Assembly: GCA_030123625.1 (NCBI GenBank)
Contig: CP126121.1
Span: 2,396,179 to 2,460,178, forward strand
Reading direction: 5' to 3'
Length of the DNA stretch: 64,000 nucleotides
DNA from: Nitrospira sp.
Lineage (GTDB): Bacteria; Nitrospirota; Nitrospiria; Nitrospirales; Nitrospiraceae
This document shows, piece after piece, positions 51,697-53,181 of this stretch. Position 1 is the first letter of the stretch. Each line of letters begins with the position of its first letter. Both the position numbers and the translations under genes were made by a program. The notes below the pieces were generated by a model. It was not told the DNA's origin. It did not search any database and was given only the letters and a program-made list of their open reading frames with translations.

Positions 51697-52266
51697 TCAG
51701 CGGATGATTTCGCGGTTATCGAGTTTCGACGGAGGCAGCCGATCCACCACCTGCAAGTGATTGATCACGTTCTTGACCCCTTGGACGCCATGAGCCGCTT
51801 TTTCAGCTGCATTCTTCGTTCGGTCGTCGAGGACATCGCCCTTGAGAGTCACCTCGCCCTGACGCACGGAGATCCGGACGGTTGGATTCTTTTCGAGCGC
51901 AGGCGTCTGCTTAAAAGCTTCCCAGACATCCCGTCTGATCTTGTAGTCCGGTGCAAGCGCCACGTCCACGATCACGCTGTTTCTCACGCTCAGCACGCCC
52001 GGTACCGTGCCGGCGATCGTCTCGGCCCAGCCTTTTTCCTCCGGACTTGCGACTTCGCCGAATAACGTGACGTTGCCCTTGTCGACCTTGACGCGCAACA
52101 CTTCCCAATTGATGCGACCGTCCTCCCGCAATTGCAGTTCGATCTTCGACCGGACCGTTTCATCGGACACATTGGATTCCGGCGCGGCAAAAAGTGCTGC
52201 CGGCGTGACAACCCCTACCCACAGTAAGACGCTCGCCCAGATCACCATCTCATTCAGCTTCCGCAT
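51697..52266 (-). CDS. Periplasmic protein with two BON domains
   Basis: 189 residues from ATG 52266 (GAGGAG upstream). Signal peptide (VIWASVLLWVGVVTPAALFA) followed by two BON domains at about 40-105 (VRSKIELQLREDGRINWEVL, NVTLFGEVASPEEK) and 112-180 (YKIRRDVWEAFKQTP, EVTLKGDVLDDRTKN). BON domains bind membrane surfaces; proteins of this kind (OsmY-like) answer envelope or osmotic stress. The hairpin array at 52336-52480 lies directly upstream. Confidence 0.88.
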   Translation of the reverse strand: MRKLNEMVIWASVLLWVGVVTPAALFAAPESNVSDETVRSKIELQLREDGRINWEVLRVKVDKGNVTLFGEVASPEEKGWAETIAGTVPGVLSVRNSVIVDVALAPDYKIRRDVWEAFKQTPALEKNPTVRISVRQGEVTLKGDVLDDRTKNAAEKAAHGVQGVKNVINHLQVVDRLPPSKLDNREIIR

Positions 52267-52335
52267 GGTTGTTCTCCTCACTGTGTCCATGAATAGTGTG
52301 TGCCTCTATAAAAACAGGTCGCTCATCAAGACACG

Positions 52336-52480
52336 GACGCCTCACGTCCCGGCGGCGTTCACGAAAGATTCGAAGACACTGGGCGCTCACTGTCTCGCGC
52401 CCGTCCACAAACACTTAAGACACCGCCGGCTCACCGACTCGCCGGCGCGCACAAACGTGGCGCTCATTATTCTTCGCGCC
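52336..52480 (-). repeat. Array of four spaced hairpins upstream of the BON gene
   Basis: Units: ACGCC/GGCGT (52337-52358), GGGCGC/GCGCCC (52381-52402), GCCGGC/GCCGGC (52425-52446), GGCGC/GCGCC (52459-52480). Every loop begins TCA and is 10-12 nt. Start-to-start spacing is 44, 44 and 34 bp, and the first three are each preceded by AAGACAC. Stem sequences differ from unit to unit but always pair. This fills the 228-bp gap between the YfdX-like and BON genes; no gene is present. Confidence 0.75.
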
Positions 52481-52494
52481 GTGCGCCTCGTCGA

Positions 52495-53181
52495 TCACGA
52501 GGCCTTCGCCGGTGCGATCTTCTTTCCGAATTTCTCGATCTCCTCTCCAACCTCCTCAATCCCTTTACCGACCTCGTCGGCTACCCAGTCTGCGCCTTTC
52601 CTCATTTTTCCGGCGAGTAGGCGTGTGCCCTTCATGGTCTTGGCCCCGGCGGCTTCCGCTTTATGTCCGGCCCAGATCAAGCCTTGGTCAAAATGCGCCG
52701 CCGCCGCTTGCAGATCCTGCCCGACCTTGCGGGCCGCTTGCTCGGCCTGGTTCGTCCAGGATTCTTTGGCCTTCAGCTGATGATGGTGGGCAAGAGCCTG
52801 GTGAGCACGAGCAAAGGCCTCATCGAGTCGCTTCACGGAGGTGATGGTGCCATGTTCGACGTCCTCCGCCAGTTTGGCCAATTCATGGCCGGATTCTTCC
52901 ATCAGTTTCTTTCCCTCCTCCGTAGCCCGGCCCGCTTCCAGTTTCAGAAAGGCCTCGCCTTTTCGGATTTCTGCGGCCGCCTTTTTCAGATCTTTTTTCA
53001 GAAAGGATTCGTGAGCTCGATGGAAATGCTCTTCCGACTCGTCATCTATGACAAGCCACACTTCCTCGTCGACAAGGAGATAGCCCTCAGGGGCTTTCGA
53101 CGGTGTTGATTCGGCTCCAGCTCCTACAGGCATCATTCCGATTGTGACCGCCATCGCAAGTCTACACAGGGTCGGACGCAT
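52495..53181 (-). CDS. Exported helical protein, YfdX-like
   Basis: 228 residues. Signal peptide MRPTLCRLAMAVTIGMMPVG with cleavage near AGAES. The mature protein is highly charged and helical (AHESFLKKDLKKAAAEIRKG, ALAHHHQLKAKESW, VGKGIEEVGEEIEKFGKKI), consistent with the YfdX family of periplasmic stress proteins, though no invariant motif decides it. GGAGG precedes the ATG. It sits among acid/heat/envelope stress genes. Confidence 0.55.
   Translation of the reverse strand: MRPTLCRLAMAVTIGMMPVGAGAESTPSKAPEGYLLVDEEVWLVIDDESEEHFHRAHESFLKKDLKKAAAEIRKGEAFLKLEAGRATEEGKKLMEESGHELAKLAEDVEHGTITSVKRLDEAFARAHQALAHHHQLKAKESWTNQAEQAARKVGQDLQAAAAHFDQGLIWAGHKAEAAGAKTMKGTRLLAGKMRKGADWVADEVGKGIEEVGEEIEKFGKKIAPAKAS

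Follow-up and report, generated by a model that had tools for sequence, protein, structure and literature searches.

A four-hairpin array in Nitrospira is probably a partly deleted nest of a dispersed, REP-like repeat unit

Hairpins that follow one another at regular distances, with stems that differ in sequence and still pair, raise the question of whether structure is maintained for a purpose at the place where they are found. Such an array of four hairpins lies between two co-directional minus-strand genes in a stretch of 64,000 nucleotides of a Nitrospira chromosome (hereafter the window). A preliminary description of this DNA took the changing stems as a sign of selection on structure, in RNA or as cruciform DNA. 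Our results confirm the array itself, which is real; it is not a device specific to this locus. Its features and those of its neighbours are collected in Table 1. One neighbour encodes a BON-domain protein. The other, encoding 228 amino acids, had been labeled YfdX-like, a label without support, as no Pfam or NCBIfam family matched at cut-off; homologs of this gene (E<=1e-20) were found only in the genomes G016 and G001 besides its own when 76 genomes were searched.

Table 1. Coordinates of the array, its neighbours and related elements (window positions unless G000:C1, the genome's own chromosome, is given)
Feature	Position	Strand	Details
BON-domain protein gene	51697..52290	-	Pfam BON 2.3e-27; downstream in transcription, outside the repeat
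Whole feature	52328-52490		Array extent after correction
Unit a, outermost, fore-part only	52328..52362	+	Covariance model; homology to genome copies
Unit a, parts	52328-52334; 52336-52341 / 52351-52356		AAGACAC; H1 arms GACGCC / GGCGGC
Unit a, opening arm GTTCAC	52357-52362	+	No closing arm in the window
Linker GAAAGATTCG	52363..52372	+	From opening arm of a to unit b
Unit b, middle, fore-part only	52373..52408	+	Covariance model
Unit b, parts	52373-52379; 52381-52386 / 52397-52402		AAGACAC; H1 arms GGGCGC / GCGCCC
Unit b, opening arm GTCCAC	52403-52408	+	No closing arm here; GTGGAC arm survives in G001
Unit c, inner, complete	52417..52490	+	AAGACAC (from 52417), H1, H2 and CTC; covariance model E 2e-24
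H1 of unit c	52425..52446	+	GCCGGC 52425-52430 / GCCGGC 52441-52446; loop TCACCGACTC
H2 of unit c	52447..52486	+	Outer stem GCGCAC 52447-52452 / GTGCGC 52481-52486
H2 of unit c, interior	52459-52463 / 52476-52480		Internal AAACGT; inner stem GGCGC / GCGCC; loop TCATTATTCTTC
CTC end of unit c	52487..52489	+	Constant right junction in the family
228-aa protein gene	52495..53181	-	Stop codon ~5 nt from the repeat
MITE-2 copies	G000:C1 133153, 1164510, 1262723, 2463516, 2891355, 2995190, 3460568
IS110-interrupted units	G000:C1 686583, 3976045, 4672915	-, +, +

All four hairpins were present when the sequence was checked, with small corrections to extent and spacing. TCA opens every loop and AAGACAC precedes the first three hairpins, as had been described. 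The stems start at 52336, 52381, 52425 and 52459, so that the second and third intervals are 44 and 34 bp as first given and the first is 45 rather than 44. The fourth hairpin had been described too short: its inner stem was correct, whereas the outer stem around it had been missed. At the first position there is indeed a hairpin, for which homology with other family members indicates the arms listed in Table 1, with one A-G mismatch; the ACGCC/GGCGT originally proposed is an alternative pairing. Fold energies were ordinary (z of -1.27 and -1.72 for RNA of the plus and minus strand and -1.15 for DNA), which rules out unusual stability as the mark of the array. Tandem repeat and direct repeat finders did not see it, and there was no direct repeat family in 52100-52700. 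An Rfam search of the window gave no match at gathering score, the nearby matches being at chance level only. A covariance model of the repeat family, in contrast, recognized three units in the array (E of 2e-24, 8e-6 and 0.089) and nothing beyond them in the 64 kb at E<=10. The reality of the array is based on this model and on repetition elsewhere; thermodynamics alone would not single it out. Elsewhere in the window, motif matches recur identically on both strands at ~39928 and ~41501, a distance of 1573 bases, which suggests that ~0.7 kb or more has been duplicated with little change.

When the own genome (4,691,675 bases) was searched with 235 bases around the array, 45 BLAST matches were obtained, the array included. 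Thirty own-genome copies were aligned over a common unit of ~74 nt (training alignment A1), which consists, in this order, of AAGACAC, a first hairpin (H1) with a 6-bp stem and the loop TCACC..CTC, a second hairpin (H2) with a two-part stem, and CTC. H2 has a 6-bp outer stem, an internal AAACGT, an inner stem of 5-7 bp and a TTATTC loop. Left to itself, RNAalifold arrived at this structure and gave 11 of 17 pairs with two-sided changes; with the structure specified by hand they were seen at 13 of 19 pairs (67 cells versus 19.9 after shuffling), and the covariation score was 0.364 compared with 0.120 for shuffled and at most 0.074 for slid alignments. The 97 distinct copies from other species displayed the same covariation (0.359 versus 0.108), in an alignment that was fitted to the model and therefore leans towards it. 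Covariance model R1, built from the aligned copies, gave 78 clear matches when run on the own genome, of which 74 had E<1e-8. Because A1 includes the full unit at 52417, the score of that unit is partly by construction, whereas ~48 copies outside A1 are independent matches. The outer stems of H2 fall into discrete, paired types (GCGCAC/GTGCGC, GTCCAC/GTGGAC, GTCCGC/GCGGAC and GTTCAC/GTGAAC). CTC stands at the right end of 67 of the 78 own copies and of 80 of the 104 copies elsewhere, and TCACC, AAACGT and TTATTC in the loops and linker are conserved besides the stems. The unit, which begins with AAGACAC and ends with CTC, has no terminal inverted repeats and no visible target site duplication. 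It is, like REPs, a short extragenic palindrome in many copies, 58 of 62 clusters lying between open reading frames by rough gene calls.

The compensatory change in the paired stems is thus real at the level of the family. It was not acquired in the array: the stem differences there, first read as local compensatory mutations, are pre-existing variants of a dispersed family, and in paralogous repeats compensatory changes alone do not prove function at a locus. The array resembles a CRISPR in its regular spacing at first sight. However, the early judgment that it is none was sound, since the repeats differ, unique spacers are lacking and units of the same kind are scattered over the chromosome.

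Comparison of orthologous sites revealed how changeable these units are. At the window locus the own genome has the full stack, G001 a deletion chimera that lacks one H1 and has an H2 joining GCGCAC to GTGGAC, and G016 a 13-nt remnant only, GTCGCGGACCTCG; the right arms differ in all three (GTGCGC, GTGGAC and GCGGAC, respectively). Loss of the stems in close homologs was among the outcomes that the preliminary description had itself named as speaking against a local function, and both genomes that share the 228-aa gene have lost them. The array can be explained without any function for the genes beside it. Site 1283574 occurs in three states: without any miniature inverted-repeat element (MITE) in one relative (L175), with a bare MITE in another (L219) and, in the own genome, with a MITE that carries a unit plus one more hairpin module. 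Here the unit replaces ~9 nt of an otherwise alike MITE. The flanks of site 1323097 are kept in three genomes and the inner modules differ; at site 6838 the number of modules differs across three genomes. Variation of unit number between related genomes, one of the checks suggested at the outset, is therefore seen at the window locus and at other orthologous sites.

A covariance-model search of relatives, also suggested then, found similar units in 24 of 79 congeneric genomes, with 1 to 62 copies in each of these (by the model under a strict filter) and a patchy distribution. Records with the H1 pattern were named Nitrospira or Nitrospirae, N. moscoviensis and N. defluvii included. The one exception was a contig filed as Planctomycetaceae (L137, JAHBXU010000001.1), which carries the same two units as the Nitrospira contig L166 and is probably misbinned.

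The contexts of the copies were read from 339 kb of genome stretches, with classes assigned by sequence patterns. More than half of the own copies (44 of 78) sit at two fixed points, both bulges, of one foldback element, MITE-1, and 7 in a second, MITE-2. The loops of other units hold further copies, 12 in H2 and 2 in H1. The right flank is of a different kind in the remaining 13, which include the window copy and three that an insertion sequence has interrupted. MITE-1 has terminal inverted repeats (CAGGATGTTGAAAAAG / CTTTTTGAACATCCTG; 93 matches versus none in the control), no open reading frame and many copies, as expected of a MITE. It occurs in a bare form of 124 bp and in forms of 191, 233 and 296 bp with one or two units and further hairpins. 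The bare form was identified in 70 of 76 congeneric genomes; it is nearly genus-wide and the unit is not, so that the unit looks like the later invader. Bare copies (for example, G000:C1 1280573-1280696) often have CTAG or CTAA in front, with no visible target duplication, and the ends of MITE-1 resemble a two-way terminator. A hairpin followed by GGGGNGGGNGGGTGAGAA, possibly quadruplex-forming, makes up a second module type in MITE-1 (for example, L089:4752-4984), inserted at its tip and close to its right end. MITE-2 has the ends GCCCGCATTATTCATGA / TCATGAATAATGCGGGC and carries one unit at the same place per copy. To the left of the array, CATGAATAGTG was considered as a MITE-2 end and dropped because it belongs to the ordinary 5' sequence of the BON gene, a stretch that is kept in G016 and almost entirely in G001.

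In every host the right junction falls at CTC (GCTC^AGAGGC, GCTC^GCTGCGG, GCTC^ATTATTC and CTC^GCGCCC), and the left junction is variable, with ~6 to 36 nt of host replaced. The opening and closing arms of the outer unit still pair around an inserted one: the distance is 97 nt for GTCCAC/GTGGAC at 760327 and 104 nt for GTCCGC/GCGGAC at 1031968, compared with 28 nt normally. Taken together, this is a dispersed, structured and self-nesting repeat unit that differs between related genomes. The unit is also a preferred target of IS110: three own-genome units are interrupted by an IS110-family element (DEDD_Tnp_IS110 2.6e-23), each time at the same H2-loop base, and a relative ~74% alike (L123:968-2080) is found at a unit in another Nitrospira.

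In our view, the array probably represents three nested copies, in part deleted, of a dispersed element of Nitrospira that is REP-like and non-autonomous. Spread would involve a single strand of the unit that folds, either on the lagging strand or at forks that have stalled. A candidate recombinase supplied in trans would join this strand to a target hairpin at a CTC that lies in an unpaired loop or bulge, and in this way hairpins would come to grow inside hairpins. At the window, units a, b and c would have been stacked and the outer closing arms deleted afterwards, those of a and b possibly by deletions between short repeats such as CCTC. The order is the same in a nested copy at 760325-760443, which has a single fore-part, a linker of the same type (AAAGATTCG) and, after the inner unit, the closing arm GTGGAC. 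With the closing arms absent in the window, we infer the nest of three from such other loci, as the simplest account. Gene conversion among copies probably helps to swap and replace modules, and many of the copies in MITE-1 may go back to a small number of insertions, later carried along by the MITE. Against a mobile unit stands the fact that no mobilizing enzyme was found among the Y1_Tnp genes and the MITE-1 inverted-repeat pairs examined, none of which enclosed a transposase. Nor did we see a site that was cleanly empty of the unit alone; the one in G016 retains its 13-nt remnant. A bolder form of the same reading, which we offer quite tentatively, is a hyperparasitic hairpin element that joins at CTC in other hairpins and its own, producing tree-like nests by means of a recombinase other than Y1/RAYT.

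The strongest rival is passive spread, in which the unit hitch-hikes in MITEs bearing terminal inverted repeats and is moved by gene conversion, slippage or template switching in palindromes, processes that would also make stems match without selection. Hairpin-templated correction can yield two-sided changes mechanically. The variable left junction and the replaced host bases are unusual for precise transposition and fit gene conversion or template switching, and passive spread explains this junction well. The majority of copies lie within MITE-1; the short replacement at 1283574 is what conversion would give, and the exchange of modules between kept flanks at 1323097 points the same way. However, units are also found outside recognized MITE ends (in the window, at 760370, at 2212782 and at others), and the same right end occurs in two unrelated MITEs and in the loops of other units, hosts for which passive spread accounts less well. 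It remains a minority reading in our assessment, with a real but limited chance of being correct.

Mobilization by a RAYT (TnpA-REP) tyrosine transposase, as in classical REP/REPIN systems, would suit short extragenic palindromes in many copies, and REP dimers inserted in palindromes have been described; REP insertions in palindromes are on record for A. variabilis, T. roseum and H. neapolitanus (PMC3733652). The own genome has four Y1_Tnp genes (G000:C1 2748658, 2750791, 4298909(-) and 71233(-)), which share the short ends GGGTCAGATCTTGTAT ... ACAAGACCTGACCCT; a decayed miniature copy lies beside the one at 4298909. However, no unit flanks any of the four, the nearest being ~1 kb off and beyond another gene. 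At least one of them has a C-terminal helix-turn-helix region, and by eye they look like a TnpA-REP subclass of the kind reported without REPs (PMC6006769). The consensus and the alignment of 30 copies have no GTAG/CGTC tag at the stem end, G031 has 11 units and no Y1_Tnp match at 1e-5, and the numbers of units and Y1 genes were hardly related across 76 genomes (rho 0.19, p 0.10, uncorrected for relatedness). RAYT is thus unlikely to be the mobilizer.

Equally improbable is a functional RNA, that is, an array co-transcribed with the minus-strand genes as a processing, stabilizing or attenuating element between them. Its position between two co-directional genes would suit such a role, and the comparable BOX repeats are transcribed and can alter expression (PMC3049150). 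In contrast, the orientation of genes around the units (31 co-directional, 10 convergent and 10 divergent sites, by rough calls of a simple codon-usage script) revealed no strand preference, with 14 sense and 17 antisense units at the co-directional sites. Nor is there a terminator-like site; fold energy is unremarkable, Rfam gave no match, the structure is lost at the window locus in G001 and G016, and units elsewhere have many unrelated neighbours. Enterobacterial REPs bind gyrase, IHF or Pol I, and the letters conserved in loops and linker would fit a candidate protein-binding or cruciform DNA site, which the patchy occurrence in the genus and the loss at the window locus make very improbable.

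Among known systems, REP, BIME and REPIN elements are likewise short extragenic hairpins in tens of copies, composite, patchy between relatives, inserted inside palindromes (PMC3733652) and targeted by IS110-family elements (PMC1525189). The Nitrospira unit differs in that its two hairpins are unlike and in direct order, the GTAG/CGTC tag is missing, no RAYT partner was found, and copies are nested instead of standing head to head. BOX of Streptococcus pneumoniae, together with RUP and SPRITE, shares modular hairpins, a strain-variable number of modules and mutual insertion (PMC3049150); compared by description, the tandem B modules of BOX are enclosed by fixed A and C ends, and terminal inverted repeats with target site duplications are present, whereas the Nitrospira modules are lodged in one another's loops and the unit lacks terminal inverted repeats. 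MITE-1 and MITE-2, which carry the unit, are non-autonomous, intergenic and foldback as it is, but the unit lacks their inverted-repeat ends and the near genus-wide occurrence of MITE-1. A partial search of the literature found no description of such a repeat family in Nitrospira; the available parts of a survey that lists N. moscoviensis palindromes do not define this family (PMC12306157).

Nitrospira are ecologically important nitrifiers, and the repeat family accounts for sequence differences between their related genomes at many intergenic sites, which makes the unit sites ready-made loci for strain typing. Nested, loop-targeted repeats without RAYT would also offer a test of whether REP-like elements spread by another enzyme or by recombination alone.
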